Assembly: GCA_002049495.1 (NCBI GenBank)
Contig: LLYS01000002.1
Coordinates: forward strand, 1 to 64,000
Reading direction: 5' to 3'
From: Epsilonproteobacteria bacterium tcs-49
GTDB taxonomy: Bacteria; Campylobacterota; Campylobacteria; Campylobacterales; Sulfurovaceae
DNA length: 64,000 bases
Shown: positions 2,697 to 37,001 of the stretch, one piece after another
Numbering within the stretch: the stretch's first letter is position 1
Layout: each line of letters starts with the position of its first letter
Translations under genes and position numbers: made by a program
Notes under the pieces: model-generated
Told to the model about the DNA's origin: nothing
Database searches by the model: none
The model's input: the letters and a program-made list of their open reading frames with translations, nothing else

Positions 2697-5323
2697 CAGA
2701 TGTAGCCTTCGCAGGGCTTCTCTCCCAGGTCGGTTATGATCTGCATATACTCCCCCACCTGGTTTTTGTGGTGGGCTTTGTCTTTTGTTGAAGTTTTATA
2801 ATCGATAATAACGTAGCGCTCCCGCGTTTCCAGAAGCATATCGATCTGTTTGAGCGCGCCCTTGTAGATGATCGGTTTTTCCTTATAGACCGTCGCGCCC
2901 CGAAGCAGCTTTTGAAACTGCGCATTTTCCAGCAGTTTTGCAGCGCGTTTTTCTATATCGGTCAGATCCACGCTTTCGCCAAAGCGGTTTTGTACGCAGC
3001 TCAGGGCCGCGGGCAGGGCCTTGGGATCAAAGTCTTGGAGCTGCTCCATGCAGTGGTGAAACGCCGTCCCGAAGCGGATTGCGCGCAGATCTTTCGCGCT
3101 TTCTTTCTCCTTTTCCGCACCTTTTTCCTGTAGTCCCAGATCCCGCAGCCGCAGTTGCATCGGTTCGGGTTTGGTCGCGGGTTTTTCGTCGGTAAATTCC
3201 AGGCTGCCTCTGGTGAGGGGTTCAAGCCCCAGGATGGAGAATTTGGAGTTTTTCTCCTTTGTCATGACAAAGAGATTGTCGCGCGCACGGGTAAGGGCGA
3301 CGTAGAGGGTGTGTTCCAAATCCTCCTGCTTCAGCGCCTTTTGCTGTTCGCGCACTTCTCGGTATTCGGGGTCGAAGTGTTCGCGGTTTTTAAAGCGGTA
3401 CCAAATATTTTCGATCCCCAGGCGGTGGTTTTCAAAGATGAGGGTACTGTTTTCGGGCTTGTCGCGGCTGGAAAAAGAGTCGGCGACGATGGTGTTGGCA
3501 AACTCCAAACCTTTGGATTTGTGCACCGTCATGATTTTGACGCCGTGCATCGATTGTACCACCGCGCTTTCATCGATATCCTCCTCCAGAAATTCGATGA
3601 TGTCGCCGTAACCGCTTGCGATCTCAAGCAGCCGCAAAATGTTCACGTCCCCGTCGAAGTAGCCGTATTTTTGTATCAATCGCCGCAGCACGTCAAAAGG
3701 CGCCATAGTGATGTCAAACTCCAGCTCCAGCTTGCCGTTTCGCTCGCCCCTGTGGTGGAAAAACTCCGCTTTGTGGATATCTTCTTTACCCACAAGGTAG
3801 CGCAGCGCGCTCAACAGCGCCGCGACTTTGGGGTTGTGGATCAGCTTTGAGGAGCTCTCCGTCACCGCGTCGATCCCTTTGCGGTACAGCTGTGCCTCCA
3901 CCTGCTGGGCATCTTTGTTTTGAAAAACCAGCACGGCGATCTCATCGGGGTCGCAGCCAAGGTCGAGCAGCTCCTCGACCTTGGCGATGACGCCTTCAAA
4001 GATACCCTCCTCCCCGTGGCGCTCCACACACACAAAGCCCCCCTTCCTTATGGGTTTTTGGGGGATAAACCCCTGCATAAAGCCGAAGTGTTCATTGACA
4101 AACTCCACGACGTTGGCGCAGCTGCGGAAGTTGTACTCCATCTGCTTTTTGACTATGGGATAGTGTTCGGCCACGTCGTAAAAGAGGTTTTTCTGTCCGC
4201 CCCGGAAGCGGTAGATCGATTGTTTTACGTCGCCTACGTAGAAAAAGGAGCGGAACTCCCCCTGACCTGTACCGCTTGTGATCTCGTCGATAAGGGGTTT
4301 AAAGATTTGAAACTGGATAAGCGAAGTATCTTGGAACTCGTCGATGAGGATGTGGCGGTACCTGCTGTCTAAGCGAAAGTACAGAAACTCTTTGTCGATG
4401 CTGTGCAGCAGCTCATACACCCGCAGCGTCACGTCGGTGAACTGCAGTCTTGTGGGGTTGAAGCGCGCGGTTTTGTAAAGGGAGTAAAAATGCATGATCG
4501 TCGCGAGCAGGAAGCGCTCCTTTTCCCGGGTATAGGCTTTCAACGCCTCTTTAAGCTCGAAAAACTCCCCGTCAAGTTCGGGACGGTGACACTTTTTGAA
4601 GTTGCGGTGTTCACCCAGGGAGTCTTTGGCCAGCCAGGTTTTTTGCGCGATCTCTTCAATGCTGTCAAAGCGCACCATCTTCAGAACCGTGTTGCTGGCG
4701 TCCTTGCAGGATTCGATCTGCTTTTTGATGCGCTCCATGGGTGCAAGTACCGCCTTTGAGCGGTCGCGGTAGGAAAGATCGTTATCAAGCGGGGGCAGGA
4801 TGGAATCGTTTTCATAAAGGGTGTTGAAAATCTCCAGGATATTGTTGAGTTTGGCATTTTCCATCTCGAAAAGTTTAATAAAGTCATCCATATTTTCGAT
4901 TTTGGCGAAGTAGCGCTCCAGCAGCTTTTTTTCATCCACTTTGGAGATGACGCCGAAGTTGGGGTCAAGTCCCGCTTCAAAGGCGAAACTGTGCAGCACC
5001 TGCGTAAAGAATTTATCGATATTGACAATGTGGGAGCGGCTTTGCAAAAAGCGCTGTTTGACCCGCTGCTTATCCGCCTCGATCCGGCTTTGGGGCAGTC
5101 CCGTCTCCTTGGCGACGAGTTCGAGCATCGTCGGGTCAAGTTCCGTCAGTGCCGAAACGATCCGTTCGCGCATCTCCGCCGCGGCTTTTTTGGTAAAGGT
5201 GACGGTGAGGATGCTCTCGGGGGCCTGATCCAGAAAAAGCAAGGAGAGGTAGCGGACGGTCAGCCGGAAGGTTTTCCCGCTGCCCGCACTGGCTTCATAA
5301 GCGACAAAGGGTTCAAAGGACAT
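2636..5323 (-). CDS. addA: AddA/RecB-like helicase-nuclease
   Basis: UvrD/Rep-type superfamily 1 helicase fused to a RecB-like nuclease, acting on double-strand ends for recombinational repair. In the 895-residue protein, Walker A is ASAGSGKT (11-18), the DEFQDT box is at 328-333, and the late helicase motif VALTRARDNL is present. The C-terminal PD-(D/E)xK nuclease shows D828 and D841-K843 (within IDYKTS). Campylobacter AddA proteins begin the same way (MSFEPF...ASAGSGKT). Its usual partner addB is not adjacent: the upstream neighbour is an unrelated lipoprotein gene on the other strand. The 3' end overlaps tilS by 61 bp, head-on. Confidence 0.88.
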   Translation of the reverse strand: MSFEPFVAYEASAGSGKTFRLTVRYLSLLFLDQAPESILTVTFTKKAAAEMRERIVSALTELDPTMLELVAKETGLPQSRIEADKQRVKQRFLQSRSHIVNIDKFFTQVLHSFAFEAGLDPNFGVISKVDEKKLLERYFAKIENMDDFIKLFEMENAKLNNILEIFNTLYENDSILPPLDNDLSYRDRSKAVLAPMERIKKQIESCKDASNTVLKMVRFDSIEEIAQKTWLAKDSLGEHRNFKKCHRPELDGEFFELKEALKAYTREKERFLLATIMHFYSLYKTARFNPTRLQFTDVTLRVYELLHSIDKEFLYFRLDSRYRHILIDEFQDTSLIQFQIFKPLIDEITSGTGQGEFRSFFYVGDVKQSIYRFRGGQKNLFYDVAEHYPIVKKQMEYNFRSCANVVEFVNEHFGFMQGFIPQKPIRKGGFVCVERHGEEGIFEGVIAKVEELLDLGCDPDEIAVLVFQNKDAQQVEAQLYRKGIDAVTESSSKLIHNPKVAALLSALRYLVGKEDIHKAEFFHHRGERNGKLELEFDITMAPFDVLRRLIQKYGYFDGDVNILRLLEIASGYGDIIEFLEEDIDESAVVQSMHGVKIMTVHKSKGLEFANTIVADSFSSRDKPENSTLIFENHRLGIENIWYRFKNREHFDPEYREVREQQKALKQEDLEHTLYVALTRARDNLFVMTKEKNSKFSILGLEPLTRGSLEFTDEKPATKPEPMQLRLRDLGLQEKGAEKEKESAKDLRAIRFGTAFHHCMEQLQDFDPKALPAALSCVQNRFGESVDLTDIEKRAAKLLENAQFQKLLRGATVYKEKPIIYKGALKQIDMLLETRERYVIIDYKTSTKDKAHHKNQVGEYMQIITDLGEKPCEGYICYVTARESFLERVSTAISTT

Positions 5324-5380
5324 GGCAGCTCCGTAGGGTTTTGAGTATGGGTAATTGTACCATAGGAGCGGTTTAGGTTA

Positions 5381-5389
5381 TGCTATACT
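5381..5389 (+). promoter_or_regulatory. Extended -10 element upstream of the lipoprotein gene
   Basis: TG-C-TATACT at 5381-5389 lies 32 bases upstream of the ATG at 5421. The spacing allows a leader with the strong AAAGGAG ribosome binding site. No -35 box is evident. Confidence 0.45.
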
Positions 5390-5420
5390 AAATTATCAGT
5401 TGGGTATAAAAGGAGAAAAA

Positions 5421-5939
5421 ATGACGGTGCGCTTGAAGCAGATGGTGTTGATAACGGCGATTTTTTTGCTTGGAGGATGCGCGGTACCTTTGGTACAGTA
5501 TGAAAAGAAAAGCGAAGTATTATCTTTGAAGATGGATAAAAAACAAAGATATAACGTGGCGCTGGATAAACCCGTTTACCAACCCCTGAGAGGGCAGTGT
5601 TTAAAATCCAGTTATATGATTACCGACAGTAATCATCCCCGTTACGGATACCTTTTTGCCACGCATATCTCCCTAAAAGGAGGGTGCCAGTGGAAAGGCC
5701 TGCTTGAGGGATATTTTATCAATGCTGCGAAGAAAGGCTTGAAAGCTACGGAGATAAAAAAGATAGGCGGCGAAGAGATAGGGCAATATAAATTTATACG
5801 CTACAGCGCGAAGATAGAGGGCAAGCGGGAAGGTTTTTATATCATCAATCTATGGGGAGCCGGAGAAAACACTTTTATTATCGACAGAAAAGGGGAGTTG
5901 ACACGCGAAATTAAGCAGCGGCTGCGGAATCTGCAGTAA
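5421..5939 (+). CDS. Hypothetical lipoprotein
   Basis: I do not recognise this 172-residue protein. Residues 1-20 form a lipoprotein signal peptide: basic N-terminus, hydrophobic stretch and lipobox LLGGC with the lipidated cysteine at 20. The mature part is mostly soluble and basic, with two further cysteines and no membrane segments. The start at 5421 is chosen because AAAAGGAG sits just upstream and it gives a proper signal peptide; a longer reading frame from 5355 would bury the signal. It stands alone between addA (divergent) and rplM, with its own likely promoter. Envelope location is inferred from the lipobox; function is unknown. Confidence 0.75.
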   Translation: MTVRLKQMVLITAIFLLGGCAVPLVQYEKKSEVLSLKMDKKQRYNVALDKPVYQPLRGQCLKSSYMITDSNHPRYGYLFATHISLKGGCQWKGLLEGYFINAAKKGLKATEIKKIGGEEIGQYKFIRYSAKIEGKREGFYIINLWGAGENTFIIDRKGELTREIKQRLRNLQ

Positions 5940-23670: not shown

Positions 23671-25446
23671 ATCTTTTTTGGCCAACTCCTGGCACAGCTG
23701 TAAAAATTTTTTGCCGTAGCGTTTGAACTTCACTTCTCCCACCCCCGTGATAGAGAGCATCTGCAGCTTGTTCTGGGGGAGAAATTCACTCATCTCCAGC
23801 AGGCTCTTATCGTTAAACACCACAAAAGCGGGGACGTTCTGCTCGTCGGCGAGCTCCTTGCGCAGGGTTTTAAGCGCTTCAAAGGCGGGGTTGTCGCTTT
23901 TTTGGATTTGAAACTCTTTTGTACTTTGCAACCGCTCTTTGTCGATGTGCAGGGATCGCTCCCCCTTCAAAAGCGCTGCGCTTTTGAAGGTAAGCTTTAG
24001 CGCGGCGAATTCGCCCAGTTCCAAAAGCTCCTTTTCAAAAAGTCTGTCGATCACCGCTTCCCAAACCTTTTTGGGCACCTCTTTGCCGATGGAATAGACG
24101 CTGAGTCTGTCGTGTCCCAACTCCAAAAGCCGTTTGTTTTGCGAGCCGCGCAGAATATCGATGATATGGTTTTGCCCGAAGCGCTGGCCGCTGCGATAGA
24201 TCGCCGAGAGCAGCATCTGCGCTTTTGTCGTGACCTCTTCATACTCGATTTCGCCGCGCAGGCAGTTGTCGCACAGGGTTTCGCACGGGTCAATGGCATC
24301 GTCGAAATAAGCGGCGAGCCGGCGGTGGCGGCATTCGCCGCATGCGGCAAAAAGCGCCGCTTTTTTGAGTTTTTCCAGCTGGGTATTTTGGTATGTGCTT
24401 TGCCGATCTTCCAGAATGCGGGAGCGGCGGTTGATCTCATCGCCCTTTTTATACAGCAGCAGCGTATGCGCATCCGCTCCGTCACGCCCCGCGCGCCCGA
24501 TCTCTTGGTAATACCCCTCTAACGTCCGGGGCAAAGAGGTGTGTACGACGTAGCGGATATTGCTTTTATCGATCCCCATTCCAAAAGCCACCGTAGCGAC
24601 GACGATATCCACGTCATCGTAGATAAACGCCCTTTGGATCTTTAATCGCTCCTGGCGCTCCAGACCCGCATGGTACGCCAGGGCGTTAAAACCCGCGTCT
24701 TGTAGATAGGTTGCGAGTTCCTCCGTCTCCTTTCGGGTATGGGCGTAGATGATGCCCCGCTCCTTTTCAAAGCGGCGCACGAACTCCTTGACCTGCATCC
24801 TGCCGTTGCCCGTACGTAGCCGGACGTTGAGGTGCAGATTCTCCCGCCGGGCTTTGGCGCGCAGCTGCACCGCTTCTTCTATGCCCAGCAGATTGAGGAT
24901 ATCCCTTTGTACCTTGCGCGTCGCCGTGGCGGTAAAAGCCGCGACGGGGGTGTCGGGGAAGCGCTGCTTGAGCAGATCCAGCCTGCGGTAATCGCCGCGG
25001 AACTCATGCCCCCATTCGCTCAGGCAGTGGGCTTCGTCGATAACGAAGAAGTTGCGCTTGATCTGCGCAAGCATCTGCACAAAACTTTCCGAACCCAGCC
25101 GCTCCGGAGCGACATAGAGAAACTTGAGCTTCCCGTTATAGATATCGCTGTAGACGGTTTTTATCTCTTCGGCGTTTTGCTGGGAACTGACCATCGCCGC
25201 GGCGATACCGTTTGCCCGCAGGGCTTGGACCTGATCGTGCATCAGCGCGATAAGCGGCGAAATTACCACCGTCACCCCCTCTAGCATCAGGCCGGGCAGT
25301 TGAAAACAGAGCGATTTGCCCCCGCCCGTGGGCAGGATCATGAGCAGATCGCGCCCTTGCAGCAGTGCATCGACGGCTTCTTCCTGCAGCGGACGGAAGG
25401 TGTCGAAACCGAAATATTCCCGCAGCAGCTGCCGTTTTTCACTCAC
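23653..25446 (-). CDS. recQ: ATP-dependent DNA helicase RecQ
   Basis: 3'-5' superfamily 2 helicase for recombination and fork repair. The 597-residue protein has Walker A PTGGGKS, the DEAH box (VIDEAHCLSEWGHEFR), motif VI QEIGRAGRDG and the RecQ zinc-binding cysteines (CGECRHRR and CETLCDNC). The winged-helix RQC region and an HRDC domain in the last 80 or so residues follow. It is the last gene of a minus-strand group after gyrB, the GGDEF/EAL gene, queF and mtfA, overlapping mtfA by 8 bp. Confidence 0.95.
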   Translation of the reverse strand: MSEKRQLLREYFGFDTFRPLQEEAVDALLQGRDLLMILPTGGGKSLCFQLPGLMLEGVTVVISPLIALMHDQVQALRANGIAAAMVSSQQNAEEIKTVYSDIYNGKLKFLYVAPERLGSESFVQMLAQIKRNFFVIDEAHCLSEWGHEFRGDYRRLDLLKQRFPDTPVAAFTATATRKVQRDILNLLGIEEAVQLRAKARRENLHLNVRLRTGNGRMQVKEFVRRFEKERGIIYAHTRKETEELATYLQDAGFNALAYHAGLERQERLKIQRAFIYDDVDIVVATVAFGMGIDKSNIRYVVHTSLPRTLEGYYQEIGRAGRDGADAHTLLLYKKGDEINRRSRILEDRQSTYQNTQLEKLKKAALFAACGECRHRRLAAYFDDAIDPCETLCDNCLRGEIEYEEVTTKAQMLLSAIYRSGQRFGQNHIIDILRGSQNKRLLELGHDRLSVYSIGKEVPKKVWEAVIDRLFEKELLELGEFAALKLTFKSAALLKGERSLHIDKERLQSTKEFQIQKSDNPAFEALKTLRKELADEQNVPAFVVFNDKSLLEMSEFLPQNKLQMLSITGVGEVKFKRYGKKFLQLCQELAKKDLSPDG

Positions 25447-32259: not shown

Positions 32260-33255
32260 ATGCAGCTACAACTCCACACTCCTCTGGATATGCACCTGCA
32301 CCTGCGCCAGGGCGAGATGCTTCAAAACATCGCAAAATGCAGCAGCGATTTTTTCAGCGGCGCGATCATCATGCCAAATACGGTACCGCCGGTCACCACC
32401 AAAGAGCAGCTGCTTGGGTATAAGCGGGAGATTTTGAACAACACGAGCGGGTTTACCCCCTATATGACGCTATTTTTCAAAAACGATTACGATAAAACCT
32501 TTTTGCAAAGCGTGCGCGACGAACTTACCGCGATCAAACTCTACCCCGCCGGGATCACCACCAACAGCGAAGGCGGGGTCAGCGGGTTTGGAATCGAAGA
32601 GCTTGAACCCACGCTGCAGGCGATGAGCGAGCTGGGGATACCCCTGTGCATCCACGGCGAGAGCGACGGCTTCGTGATGGACCGCGAGGCGGAGTTCATG
32701 CCCATCTACGAATCGATCGCGAAAAACTTTCCCGACCTGACGATCATCATGGAACATATCACCACCAAAGCGGCGGTGGAGACGCTGCAAAAGTATGACA
32801 ACCTTTTTGCGACCATTACGCTGCACCACCTCTATATCACCCTGGACGACGTAGCGGGCGGGATGCTGCAGCCGCACCTGTTTTGCAAACCCATCGCCAA
32901 GCGCCCCGAGGACAAGGCGGCACTGCAAAGCGTCGCTTTCAGCGGGCATGAAAAGGTGATGTTCGGCAGCGATTCCGCGCCCCATCCCAGAGATAAAAAA
33001 GAGAGCTGCGGTTGTGCGGCGGGGGTTTTTACCGCACCCGTAGCGCTTCCCGCACTGGCGCAGATCTTTGAGCAAAACGGCGCGCTGGATAAGCTGCAAG
33101 CCTTTATCGGCGACAACGCCCGGCGTATCTACGGCGTACAGGCACCGGAAAAAACGGTCACGCTGGAGAAAAAACCCTTTGAAGTGGCCCAAACCTACGG
33201 CGGCGTGGTGCCGATGTTTGCGGGGCAGACCCTGGAGTGGAGCGTCGTGCAGTGA
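32260..33255 (+). CDS. pyrC: Dihydroorotase PyrC
   Basis: Zinc amidohydrolase closing the dihydroorotate ring in pyrimidine synthesis. The 331-residue protein is of the E. coli PyrC (type II) group. Metal ligands are in DMHLHLR (H12, H14), the carboxylated-lysine motif is AIKLYPAGITTNS, and further histidines are in IHGE and MEHITT. The catalytic aspartate is in GSDSAPH. It overlaps the following transporter by 4 bp (GTGA), suggesting coupling. Confidence 0.96.
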   Translation: MQLQLHTPLDMHLHLRQGEMLQNIAKCSSDFFSGAIIMPNTVPPVTTKEQLLGYKREILNNTSGFTPYMTLFFKNDYDKTFLQSVRDELTAIKLYPAGITTNSEGGVSGFGIEELEPTLQAMSELGIPLCIHGESDGFVMDREAEFMPIYESIAKNFPDLTIIMEHITTKAAVETLQKYDNLFATITLHHLYITLDDVAGGMLQPHLFCKPIAKRPEDKAALQSVAFSGHEKVMFGSDSAPHPRDKKESCGCAAGVFTAPVALPALAQIFEQNGALDKLQAFIGDNARRIYGVQAPEKTVTLEKKPFEVAQTYGGVVPMFAGQTLEWSVVQ

Positions 33256-34349
33256 TCTTTTCGCTGGGGGCGTTTTACTTTTTCTACTTTGCCGTTATCG
33301 GCGTGTATGTGATCTTTATGCCCCAGATCAGTAAATCGGTGGGCTACAGCCCCTTTGAGGTGGGGGTACTGTTTGCATCGGCGCCCCTGATGCGCTTTAT
33401 CGTTCCCTTTTTTTTCCGCAGGCACTTCGAACTGACCCACCGGGTGTTCAACCTGTCGCTGCTGACCGCGTTTTTGGCGGTGTCGTCTTTTTTTATCACT
33501 ATCGAAAATTTTTATCTTTTTCTACTCTCCAATCTGCTTTTTGGCGCTACGCTTTCGCTTTCGCTGCCCTATGTGGAGGCGGCAAGCCTTGAGATCGTTT
33601 CAAAACAGCGCTACGGCAAGGTGCGCCTTTTTGGTTCCGTGGGGTTTATGATCATCGCGCTGCTACTGGGCAAGTTTCTCTCAAGCCCCACCCAGGCGAT
33701 CGGGTATCTGGCGGGGACCACCTTTTTTACCATGGTCTTTGGCATGGCGATCATCCACCTGCAAAAAAAGCACAGCATCGCTTCAAAGTCAGAGGAGGGG
33801 GAGTTTTCCCTGCTGCGCTTCTGGCCCTTTTGGGTCAGCGCGTTTTTGATGCAGCTGAGTTTCGGCGGATTTTACCAGTTTTTTACCATCTACGAAAGCG
33901 ATATGGGGGTGAGTTTGGAGGTGATCAGCTGGATGTGGAGTTTTGGCGTATTGTGTGAAATCGTGATGCTGTATTTTCAGGGTCCGCTGCTGCGCAAAAA
34001 CCTGTTGACGCTTTTGCAGCTGACGGTGCTGCTGACGGCGATTCGCTGGATGATTCTGTTTCTTTTCCCCGAGCAGCTGTGGGTGGTGTTTGCGTCCCAA
34101 AGCATCCACGCTTTCAGTTTCGCACTGTACCATACCGCGGCGATCAGTTACGTCTTTATGCTCTATAGCGACAAAAAGCTTGCCCAGCAGTTTTTCCTGG
34201 GCATCGCTTTCGGGCTGGGGGCCTTTGTGGGTTCTATCACCGCCGGGGCGATGTATGGGGAGTATCTGTTCTTGTTTGAATCGCTGGTGGCCTTTGCGGC
34301 CTTTGCGATTTTGTTTAAACAGAAGCGCTTTGAACTAAGGGGCGCTTAG
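33252..34349 (+). CDS. Major facilitator superfamily transporter
   Basis: Inner-membrane protein of about 365 residues with roughly 11-12 hydrophobic segments. It resembles the MFS group that includes HcaT/LacY-like permeases: YGKVRLFGSVGF after helix 4 is the typical loop motif (here replacing G-x-x-x-D-R-x-G-R-R). The substrate is unknown. The chosen GTG at 33252 overlaps the pyrC stop as GTGA and has GGAG nine bases upstream; a GTG at 33237 is the alternative. The coupling to pyrC suggests a link to nucleobase metabolism, but this is inference. Its end overlaps the DUF748 gene by 15 bp within an inverted repeat. Confidence 0.82.
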   Translation: MIFSLGAFYFFYFAVIGVYVIFMPQISKSVGYSPFEVGVLFASAPLMRFIVPFFFRRHFELTHRVFNLSLLTAFLAVSSFFITIENFYLFLLSNLLFGATLSLSLPYVEAASLEIVSKQRYGKVRLFGSVGFMIIALLLGKFLSSPTQAIGYLAGTTFFTMVFGMAIIHLQKKHSIASKSEEGEFSLLRFWPFWVSAFLMQLSFGGFYQFFTIYESDMGVSLEVISWMWSFGVLCEIVMLYFQGPLLRKNLLTLLQLTVLLTAIRWMILFLFPEQLWVVFASQSIHAFSFALYHTAAISYVFMLYSDKKLAQQFFLGIAFGLGAFVGSITAGAMYGEYLFLFESLVAFAAFAILFKQKRFELRGA

Positions 34350-34356
34350 TTCAAAG
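34328..34356. terminator. Inverted repeat spanning both stop codons of a convergent pair
   Basis: An 11-bp perfect stem, 34328-34338 pairing with 34346-34356, encloses a 7-base loop. It contains the stop codons of the MFS gene (34347-34349) and of the DUF748 gene (34335-34337 on the minus strand). It works identically on both strands and so may end both transcripts, though no T-run follows on either side. Confidence 0.55.
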
Positions 34357-37001
34357 GTGGCCTTCAGGCTGTTTTCCCGGGGCGTATCGCAGATAGCTAC
34401 GCGCTCGGGGGCGGCTCCCATCTCAAGAAGATAGGCTTTGATATTCTCCGCCCGCTGCCGGGCAAGCTTTTCGATGCGGGCTTTGGAAACGGGGAAAGTT
34501 TTTTGCAAAGCCTCTTGCAGCAGGGCTTTGTAGCGCTCTTCATTGATCGTTGCGTTTTGCTCCTGTGCCTCTTTTCGCAACGCTTCAAGCGCTATCTTTT
34601 CTCCCTGGGCCAGGGCTTCAAGATCGATCAAAACCGGCTTCTCGGGCAGTGTTTGCTGCAGCATAGCCGCTTGTAAAGCGGCGGTATCCGCCTGCTTGTG
34701 GAGCGCACCGCAGATACTCAGATGCAGCTGTTTCCGCTTTTTCAGCGCTTCAAGCAGCAGATCGAGCTTTTCTTGCTGTTTACGCGTTAAGGCCGCCTCT
34801 CCGGCGGCGAACTCAAGATAGCGCAGCTCCTGCGCATCCATTCCCAAAACGGAGCCAAGGAGGGTAAAGGGGGACGCGGCGGCTTTGGTGACGATATTCA
34901 TCAGTGCCTGAACAACGACGCCGCTGACACTGAAATCGGGATCGTCGACACGGTTGCTTAGGCTCAGATCCAGCGAAATTTGTTTATTGAGATCTTGCAA
35001 AAGGGCGATAGCCAGCCCCGTGGGGAGAGAATCTGCTCCCGATTCATTTTCATAGGGCGAAAGGACCAGTTCGTCGATAAGCAACTCGTTCTTGGCTTGA
35101 AGCAGGGAATCTTTCAGGGTATAGCGCATATCCACGGTGAGCTTTCCCTTCTCGATCTTTTGGCCGATCCCTTTGTAGCTGTAGCCTGAAAGGTTTTGCA
35201 GGTTGAAACGGTCAAGTTTTGCTTCTACGGTGGTGTTTTTCAAAGGGGCGAACGCTTCGGTTGAGATGCGGGCATCAAGCTTTGCAAAGGAGTTGATCAG
35301 CGCTTGCAACTCCATGGCGCTGAGCTTTCCTTTGCCCAGAGCACCGCTGTGGAGTACGATTTCGGTTACGTCAAGCCGCGAGGGCGGGGCCGTGGAAAGA
35401 TCTTGGAAATGTATCTCCCCGTCGGCAACACGGATATCATCGATAGCGATATCTGCGGATCGGCCTTTTGTTTCTTTCGCCTTGGGGGCGTTTTGTTTGG
35501 GAGGTTTGGTGAGTCGTGAAAGATTGGTCGCGCCGTTTTTATCTTTATAGATATAAAAGCGCGGTTGTTTCAAGGTGATCTTTTGGGGATTGAGCAATCG
35601 CTTTTTGTGTTCGTAGCGCAACCGGTCGATACGGAGTTCTTCGAGGGTGAGCAGCTTTTGCCGCGCCGCGCCGTTTCGCAGGGCAAAATCCCTGAGCGTG
35701 ATCAGGGTATCGCCGCGCAGGTCCAAAGACTCCTTGCTCTCCAGGGCGAGACTCCCCTCCGCCCACACTTTTCCCGAGGCGATCTCGAGGTTTGTCGCAG
35801 GTTGCAGGTAGGGCGTATAGGGAGCCAGGGCTACGCTTTGGAGAAGGAAGTCGCCCTCAAACCGTTTTGGGGGCAGGGCAAACTCGCCGTTAAACGCGAC
35901 GCTTCCTCCGGAGTTTAGCGTCGCGTTTCCCTCAAGCCCGAACGGATCGTTGAGCCCAAAGCCCTCCACCCGCAGCGCCGCTTTGTCCATGCGGTGGATG
36001 AAAGCGGGCTGCAAAGTCCGGTCAAAAAATGCCGTTTGTTCAAACCGGGTATGCATAGTACCCGTTTTCAGAGCAAGCGCTTTGTTTTGCAGCTTCATAT
36101 GGAAAGTGTCCAGATCAAAACCGATCTTTTGCGCCCTAAGCAGGGCCGAACCGTTTTGCTCCAGCCCCAGTGCGTCAAGCTTTCCCCGGAGTTTTGAAAG
36201 CGACACTTCCAGCCCCCCGTTGTGGCGCATCCGCAGATCGGTTTTGTACTCCAGCGTACCGCTTGTCAAAGTAGCGGGCAGCTGCCGCTGTATATAGGTG
36301 TGCACATTGGAAAGATCGACCTTGCGGTGGTTGATCCGGGTTTCGAGATTAAAAGGGTTAAGCGACAACCTGCCCCGCAGCTCCAGCACCCCCAACTCCC
36401 CGAGGTTAAAACGCGCGAGGGTGCTGCTGTTGTCGTTTTGCAGCGTTGAAAAGTTTTCCCCTTCGTAGCTGATGGGACCGAAGGTTTTACGGTATGGTGT
36501 CTGTTGGGAACTGTCGCTGAAGGTGGTGCGCAGTTTCGTGATGGAGAGTTTGTCTATCACCAAGCCAAAGATGCCGTTTCCCGCCTCCTGTTGAGGGGGA
36601 GCTTTCTCCGTTTCGGGGGCGAAAATCCGGCTGTAGTTAAGCTGTGCCTCTGCATCCAGAGCCGGGTAGAGGTGCAACCTCTCAACCGTGACGCTTTGAA
36701 GGTGGAGGTAGCCTTTAAAGATCGAATCAAGCTCCAGGTCGGCATGGAGGTAGGGGAGTGTAAGCAACTCTTTGCCTCCGGCGTCTTTTAACGAAAGCTG
36801 TTGAAAACTAAGGAAAAACGTATAGGGATTAAAGTACACTTTCTGTATCTGCATCCTCACCCCGAAGCGCTCATGCAGCTGCTTGGCCCCCTGGGTTTTG
36901 AGCAGATAGGGCAGGGCGAAAAACCCCAGGGCGGTATAGAGGATGACGATCAGCATCAGCCAGGTACGTTTTAAGCGCAGATAGGGAAGAACTGTTTTCA
37001 T
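34335..37001 (-). CDS. AsmA-like DUF748 envelope protein
   Basis: Large protein (888 residues) with one N-terminal membrane helix (about 12-35) and a long periplasmic part of repeating beta strands, typical of the AsmA/TamB/YhdP-like DUF748 family. Such proteins form grooved bridges implicated in lipid transport between membranes. Segments such as ADIAIDDIRVADGEIHFQD and SGYSYKGIGQKIEKGKLTVD match DUF748. The C-terminal end has a helical OmpA-like flavour (RQRAENIKAYLLEMGAAPERV). It is a single gene divergent from the phospholipase gene, which fits a shared role in outer-membrane lipid upkeep, though that link is my inference. Confidence 0.82.
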   Translation of the reverse strand: MKTVLPYLRLKRTWLMLIVILYTALGFFALPYLLKTQGAKQLHERFGVRMQIQKVYFNPYTFFLSFQQLSLKDAGGKELLTLPYLHADLELDSIFKGYLHLQSVTVERLHLYPALDAEAQLNYSRIFAPETEKAPPQQEAGNGIFGLVIDKLSITKLRTTFSDSSQQTPYRKTFGPISYEGENFSTLQNDNSSTLARFNLGELGVLELRGRLSLNPFNLETRINHRKVDLSNVHTYIQRQLPATLTSGTLEYKTDLRMRHNGGLEVSLSKLRGKLDALGLEQNGSALLRAQKIGFDLDTFHMKLQNKALALKTGTMHTRFEQTAFFDRTLQPAFIHRMDKAALRVEGFGLNDPFGLEGNATLNSGGSVAFNGEFALPPKRFEGDFLLQSVALAPYTPYLQPATNLEIASGKVWAEGSLALESKESLDLRGDTLITLRDFALRNGAARQKLLTLEELRIDRLRYEHKKRLLNPQKITLKQPRFYIYKDKNGATNLSRLTKPPKQNAPKAKETKGRSADIAIDDIRVADGEIHFQDLSTAPPSRLDVTEIVLHSGALGKGKLSAMELQALINSFAKLDARISTEAFAPLKNTTVEAKLDRFNLQNLSGYSYKGIGQKIEKGKLTVDMRYTLKDSLLQAKNELLIDELVLSPYENESGADSLPTGLAIALLQDLNKQISLDLSLSNRVDDPDFSVSGVVVQALMNIVTKAAASPFTLLGSVLGMDAQELRYLEFAAGEAALTRKQQEKLDLLLEALKKRKQLHLSICGALHKQADTAALQAAMLQQTLPEKPVLIDLEALAQGEKIALEALRKEAQEQNATINEERYKALLQEALQKTFPVSKARIEKLARQRAENIKAYLLEMGAAPERVAICDTPRENSLKATFELSAP

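Follow-up and report, generated by a model that had tools for sequence, protein, structure and literature searches.

A perfect inverted repeat across the overlapping stop codons of convergent MFS and DUF748 genes in a Sulfurovaceae bacterium, and its possible origin by template switching

Intrinsic terminators carry a U-tract, to which those that work in both directions between convergent genes add an A-tract on the opposite side of the stem; in E. coli, intrinsic terminators between convergent genes are described as often bidirectional (PMC7566282, which cites Ju, Li and Liu 2019 on bidirectional terminators). Under the name of I-shaped terminators, hairpins that lack a U-tract are also discussed (PMC7406221, PMC12288462), and a general statement in PMC7815308 combines Rho-dependent termination with 3' to 5' exonuclease trimming. 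Template switching is documented as a maker of perfect hairpins (PMC8794818) and creates inverted repeats or perfects existing ones (PMC8794818, PMC6649704). For E. coli, PMC6060812 describes inverted repeats that lie close to stops and the ends of genes, and also relates the finding of Ladoukakis and Eyre-Walker that small inverted repeats are rarer in ORFs than in randomised controls.

The window analysed here is a stretch of 64,000 nucleotides from Epsilonproteobacteria bacterium tcs-49 (GenBank assembly GCA_002049495.1, contig LLYS01000002.1), in which an MFS transporter gene and a DUF748 gene meet tail to tail (Table 1). Positions 34328-34356 form a perfect inverted repeat. The initial annotation had given it a stem of 11 bp and a loop of 7 nt; its perfection stands, and the measured values are a 12-bp stem and a 5-nt loop, with arms that are 100% complementary. 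The symmetric hairpin over both stop codons and the 15-bp overlap described there were both confirmed. Repeat and overlap share one centre, which makes the two TAG stops mirror images of each other. The tripeptide FEL near the end of both proteins had been regarded as forced by the symmetry; the mirrored FEL is present, but symmetry alone is insufficient, and both proteins have FEL because the repeat is symmetric and the two reading frames are mirrored as well. The DUF748 protein showed a weak OmpA-like C-terminus with a score under the cut-off. A search for the arm sequence with up to one mismatch revealed no other copy in the window. A repeated element was rejected, as the 91-bp junction matches itself alone in its own genome in both orientations. 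A known RNA family was rejected as well: in 33900-34800, Rfam gave a single match at E up to 1, to a miRNA family (E 0.33), far under its gathering score and placed beside the repeat rather than on it.

Table 1. Positions of the inverted repeat, the two genes it joins and further convergent junctions with centred stems in the same genome
Feature	Position	Strand	Stem (bp)	Details
Left arm, CTTTGAACTAAG	34328..34339			FEL codons in the MFS frame; minus-strand DUF748 stop inside
Loop, 5 nt	34340..34344			GGGCG on the plus strand
Right arm, CTTAGTTCAAAG	34345..34356			MFS TAG stop inside; DUF748 FEL codons (minus strand)
Tail-to-tail ORF overlap, 15 bp	34335..34349			Centre 34342, same as that of the repeat
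MFS transporter gene	33237..34349	+		PF12832 MFS_1_like, E 1.3e-44; C-terminus FELRGA
DUF748 gene	34335..37001	-		PF05359, E 9.1e-157; C-terminus FELSAP
LysR regulator / MetE	C1:366101		10	Stem centre 1 nt off
No Pfam match / histidine kinase	C1:124182		9	EQA ends both proteins
Cation efflux / SIS-domain protein	C4:41559		9	EE ends both proteins
Tll0287-like / DnaJ domain	C2:45850		7	K ends both proteins
LMWPc phosphatase / DUF6858	C6:30875		6	Q ends both proteins

Compared with the described systems, the repeat resembles each in part. Like the bidirectional intrinsic terminators of PMC7566282, it is a symmetric tail-to-tail hairpin that both transcripts could use; unlike them, it has neither U-tract nor A-tract and lies in coding sequence over the stops instead of between the genes. 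It has in common with the E. coli repeats described in PMC6060812 a repeat of at least 8 bp with a spacer of at most 8 bp near a stop or gene end, but those are mostly parts of intrinsic terminators and the U-tract is missing here. With the I-shaped hairpins in PMC12288462 and PMC7406221 it shares a stem-loop near a stop codon and no U-tract, yet it runs in frame across the stop and belongs to two genes, and termination by it is only putative. The palindromes that PMC8794818 and PMC6649704 treat as products of template switching or find in coding sequence share with it a perfect stem, a short loop and a coding location, and such stems are in excess in this genome; the present repeat differs in that it joins the ends of two genes and mirrors their stops, and no sister sequence shows the event.

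Folding of the 49-nt RNA was predicted at -18.7 kcal/mol on the plus and -16.9 kcal/mol on the minus strand (z -2.8 and -3.9), a value that 1/200 and 0/200 shuffles, respectively, reached. At 101 nt the z-scores were weaker (-1.7 and -2.0), with 6/200 shuffles as good on each strand. The convergent junction therefore holds a stable hairpin, a perfect 12-bp stem centred on the overlap, which by these predictions can form in both mRNAs. Among 20,000 random gene-interior points one had a perfect stem of at least 12 bp centred within 2 nt, and the query stem was the longest among 112 close convergent junctions sampled in this genome.

To judge how often unrelated C-terminal codon strings would be mirrored by luck around overlapping stops, we permuted the partners among the junctions, which preserves the codon bias of the C-termini, and excluded the pairs that mirrored stops supply for free. 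Mirrored TAG stops alone yield up to 3 such pairs, and 3 of the 12 pairs of the query stem are of this kind, a share that favours coincidence. Beyond the overlap the query still has an exact outward run of 7 bp, and this argues against it. Outward runs of at least 6 bp with at most one mismatch were found at 5/112 junctions against 0.36 expected, a number reached in 0/3000 permutations; without the query 4/111 were left against 0.35 expected (1/3000 permutations). Support for luck comes from the exact runs. Their excess is weak once the query is removed, with runs of at least 4 bp at 3/111 junctions (reached by 172/3000 permutations), of at least 5 bp at 2/111 against 0.26 expected (87/3000) and of at least 6 bp at 1/111 (338/3000); exact runs of at least 6 bp still average 0.13 among the 112 permuted junctions, and short runs of at least 2 bp showed no excess (4/85 against 6.4 when permuted). 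The inverted repeat is real, and on this evidence a chance origin is unlikely.

The initial annotation had proposed a bidirectional terminator. This proposal is supported in part: the symmetric hairpin at a convergent junction is there, but the U-tract and the mirrored A-tract are absent. The 8 bases past the stem are GTGGCCTT on the plus strand and CGCTTCTG on the minus strand, and the stem is flanked by CAGAAGCG and GTGGCCTT, with no U-tract after the stem and no A-tract before it. Around either end of the stem the longest T run is 2 on both strands. The stem is also not G+C-rich, having G-C pairs at only 4 of its 12 positions. A canonical bidirectional, Rho-independent terminator would account for the symmetric 12-bp hairpin and has a precedent in the two-way terminators of convergent E. 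coli genes (PMC7566282). In a simple scan for terminator-like sites, the repeat is listed on the minus strand only. This listing carries little weight, as the scan returned 20 sites in 10 kb and shuffles gave 16.0 +/- 4.6. Taken with the short T runs and the few G-C pairs, this leaves the canonical terminator as an improbable reading, the last of the four considered here; any terminator function is putative, and the evidence disfavours the classical form. In lacking a U-tract the hairpin is no exception in this genome, since among 39 non-coding hairpins after stops a T run of at least 4 was found in 10 and was absent in 29. The U-tract as a criterion discriminates only weakly in this genome.

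A stem-loop at a stop codon without a U-tract is the feature of I-shaped hairpins, and it is present here. Selection may have shaped a bidirectional 3'-end hairpin in coding sequence that ends or protects both mRNAs, either by U-less (I-shaped) termination or by Rho termination downstream and exonuclease trimming back to the stem. Genes for Rho and PNPase are both present in the genome, so Rho-dependent termination followed by 3' to 5' trimming is possible, and trimming would presumably halt at the query stem. Published discussion of hairpins without a U-tract as I-shaped terminators (PMC7406221, PMC12288462) is in favour of such a hairpin. Against it, transcripts with U-less hairpins are described as shorter-lived by half-life than those with a U-tract (PMC7406221), and a ribosome at either stop would probably cover most of the stem.

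The wider evidence on selection comes from a survey of 1,491,606 bp (67%) of the same genome, with genes from a home-made codon-usage caller. It contains 142 convergent pairs, 112 of them within 40 bp, and 61 of the 142 overlap (49/106 in the first sample and 12/36 in the held-out sample, both of this genome). Tail-to-tail overlap is thus common here; in two relatives it was seen in 9/42 (G041) and 6/35 (G019) pairs. At 4/112 junctions (4/85 in the first set, 0/27 in the held-out set) a perfect stem of at least 8 bp had its centre no more than 2 nt from the junction, against 24/40,000 gene-interior control points (11/20,000 and 13/20,000) and 1/657 tandem junctions (1/465 and 0/192). This enrichment speaks for selection, as does the mean folding energy, which at 85 junctions is lower than at tandem junctions.

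Other results of the survey weigh against selection. The idea of a hairpin at every convergent junction of this genome was rejected, as a centred stem of at least 8 bp is lacking at 108/112. The held-out set comprises 27 junctions, for which the test was fixed before the sequence was seen, and it has no centred stem of this length; because about 1.3 would be expected at the earlier rate, this does not exclude a class of such junctions. Taken alone, the held-out set gives no confirmation with the one-mismatch runs of at least 6 bp either (1/27 against 0.11 expected, 326/3000 permutations). Samples of 400 kb each from the relatives G041 and G019 contained no junction-centred stem of at least 7 bp, and so none of at least 8 bp, at 28 and 18 junctions, respectively. 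When any position within 25 nt of the junction was allowed, stems of at least 8 bp were about equally frequent in the relatives (2/28 in G041 and 1/18 in G019) and here (6/85); exact centring is therefore what differs. Folding energy differs slightly from that of gene interiors in this genome (p 0.02) but not in G041 (p 0.51) or G019 (p 0.96). Considering both sides, we regard a selected U-less hairpin as possible, ahead of coincidence but behind an origin by strand switching.

Relatives were searched for both genes. Among the genomes searched, this one alone represents its genus. A protein search for DUF748 returned no hit in 59 other genomes of the same family, among which the junction has no orthologue; in the same order, 9 of 39 genomes had the protein. 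A profile search with PF05359 in 398 genomes of the order gave matches in 197, of which 147 were above the cut-off, and weak matches in three genomes of the same family (G011, G318 and G402; best E 3.5e-7). Loss or lateral gain of the DUF748 gene is possible given this distribution. For the MFS gene, 39 loci of relatives were collected (L004-L042), 38 of which cover the MFS end; none of the 38 has a DUF748 match beside it in the kept flank of 851 to 3,988 bases downstream. A MobA-like nucleotidyltransferase gene (PF12804, as in L033:3938-4510) comes next after the MFS gene, on the same strand, in 24 of these 38. In the window, the DUF748 gene occupies this MobA-like place on the opposite strand.

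Conversely, 29 flanks at the 3' end of DUF748 genes were read (9 loci and 20 loci), and an MFS match stood beside the gene only in G075 and G106, both of genus g27. A run of N spoils the junction of G106, which leaves G075, a genome of another family, as the only other case in which a tail-to-tail junction of MFS and DUF748 genes could be read. There the two genes converge (L096:1671-4646 on the plus and 4636-5772 on the minus strand) and overlap by 11 bp, and the junction shows no hairpin and no perfect stem longer than 4 bp. Because this pair overlaps without a stem, the MFS/DUF748 arrangement does not need the hairpin.

The reading we tentatively prefer, with a probability of roughly 0.4, is that the inverted repeat was made by template switching, that it persisted because constraint at the junction is weak, and that its role as a U-less 3' hairpin is modest at best. 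We place it before a selected U-less hairpin, coincidence and the canonical terminator, in this order. Strand-switch replication, by template switching or by quasi-palindrome correction, would be the most likely source of the repeat. An inverted copy of the end of one gene, for which the constrained last strand of DUF748 and its surroundings are the most plausible donor, would have been placed in the MFS tail, which varies freely; alternatively, an imperfect palindrome already present may have been made perfect. We propose that both genes end symmetrically with FEL because such a copy would bring the mirrored TAG along, and that the repeat persists because constraint on C-terminal tails is weak. 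Relatives of DUF748 finish in a strand-like stretch (KLEL, RLEI, KLEI and the like) with which its FEL aligns, and the tails of MFS proteins are variable among relatives. On this basis the DUF748 arm is the likelier original, though the argument is a thin one from few aligned residues. If the repeat has a role, a U-less 3' hairpin that acts as a pause, or as a barrier to exonucleases once Rho has ended transcription, is more likely than a classical intrinsic terminator.

Perfect stems within genes are relevant to this origin. Their numbers in called genes were 179, 48, 19, 8 and 5 for at least 8, 9, 10, 11 and 12 bp, respectively, with the query among the last five, against means of 152.32, 38.84, 10.69, 2.83 and 0.57 in 100 synonymous-codon shuffles; the observed counts were reached by 0, 6, 0, 0 and 0 of the 100 shuffles, and all of these coding counts depend on the home-made gene caller. 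Perfect arms with a short spacer thus exceed the shuffled expectation in this genome, with 5 stems of at least 12 bp where 0.57 are expected. Template switching fits because the excess of coding stems rises with stem length, a pattern with which selection is also compatible. A coding excess is not general, as ORFs of E. coli are reported to hold fewer small inverted repeats than controls (PMC6060812). Against template switching, selection for a 3' hairpin could account just as well for the enriched centred stems, and mutation by itself does not predict that they cluster precisely at convergent junctions, except where weak constraint and mirrored stops promote this; nor does any ancestral or sister sequence show the copying event.

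Including the query, six junction-centred stems of at least 6 bp were found in this genome (Table 1), and in five of them the stem centre is the exact midpoint of the two stops. One copying event that carried a stop codon along would explain this position. In the same five pairs the two proteins have common residues at or near their ends (FEL, EQA, EE, K and Q); these would be expected from such an event and are consistent with a single copying event making both ends. The 8 bases past the stem contain 0 to 4 T on either strand at all six junctions. A partly targeted search of open-access titles and abstracts found no mirrored C-termini of convergent bacterial genes. What is new here is a small set of mirror-ended convergent pairs, and more genomes are needed before a class is named.

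Strand-switch copying might have created such mirror-ended pairs repeatedly at tail-to-tail junctions of this lineage, which we consider doubtful. The final codons and stop of one gene, copied in inverted orientation, would come to serve as those of its neighbour, and a single event would leave unrelated proteins with identical C-terminal residues and both mRNAs with the same 3' hairpin. Candidates besides the query are the pairs at C1:124182, C4:41559, C2:45850 and C6:30875, the last two with one shared end residue each. The cation-efflux match of the C4 pair was absent at the isomerase loci of 29 relatives, and the 168-aa protein of C1:124182 had no match among 79 other genomes of the family. 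Relatives of GmhA sometimes have acidic tails (AFE, AFEI, NFQDEEE); matching end residues can therefore be a coincidence.

To our knowledge, RNA 3' ends have been little mapped in this bacterial group. If the mirrored junctions are made by template switching, converging genes have a one-step route to matching ends, overlapping stops and a common 3' hairpin, which would help to explain the origin of compact tail-to-tail overlaps. If they are selected, a U-less signal for the 3' ends of both transcripts is being formed out of coding sequence itself. Three further perfect 12-bp stems lie within called genes of the same contig, at 3956-3985 and 23964-23990 in the window and at C10:227545-227575 outside it.
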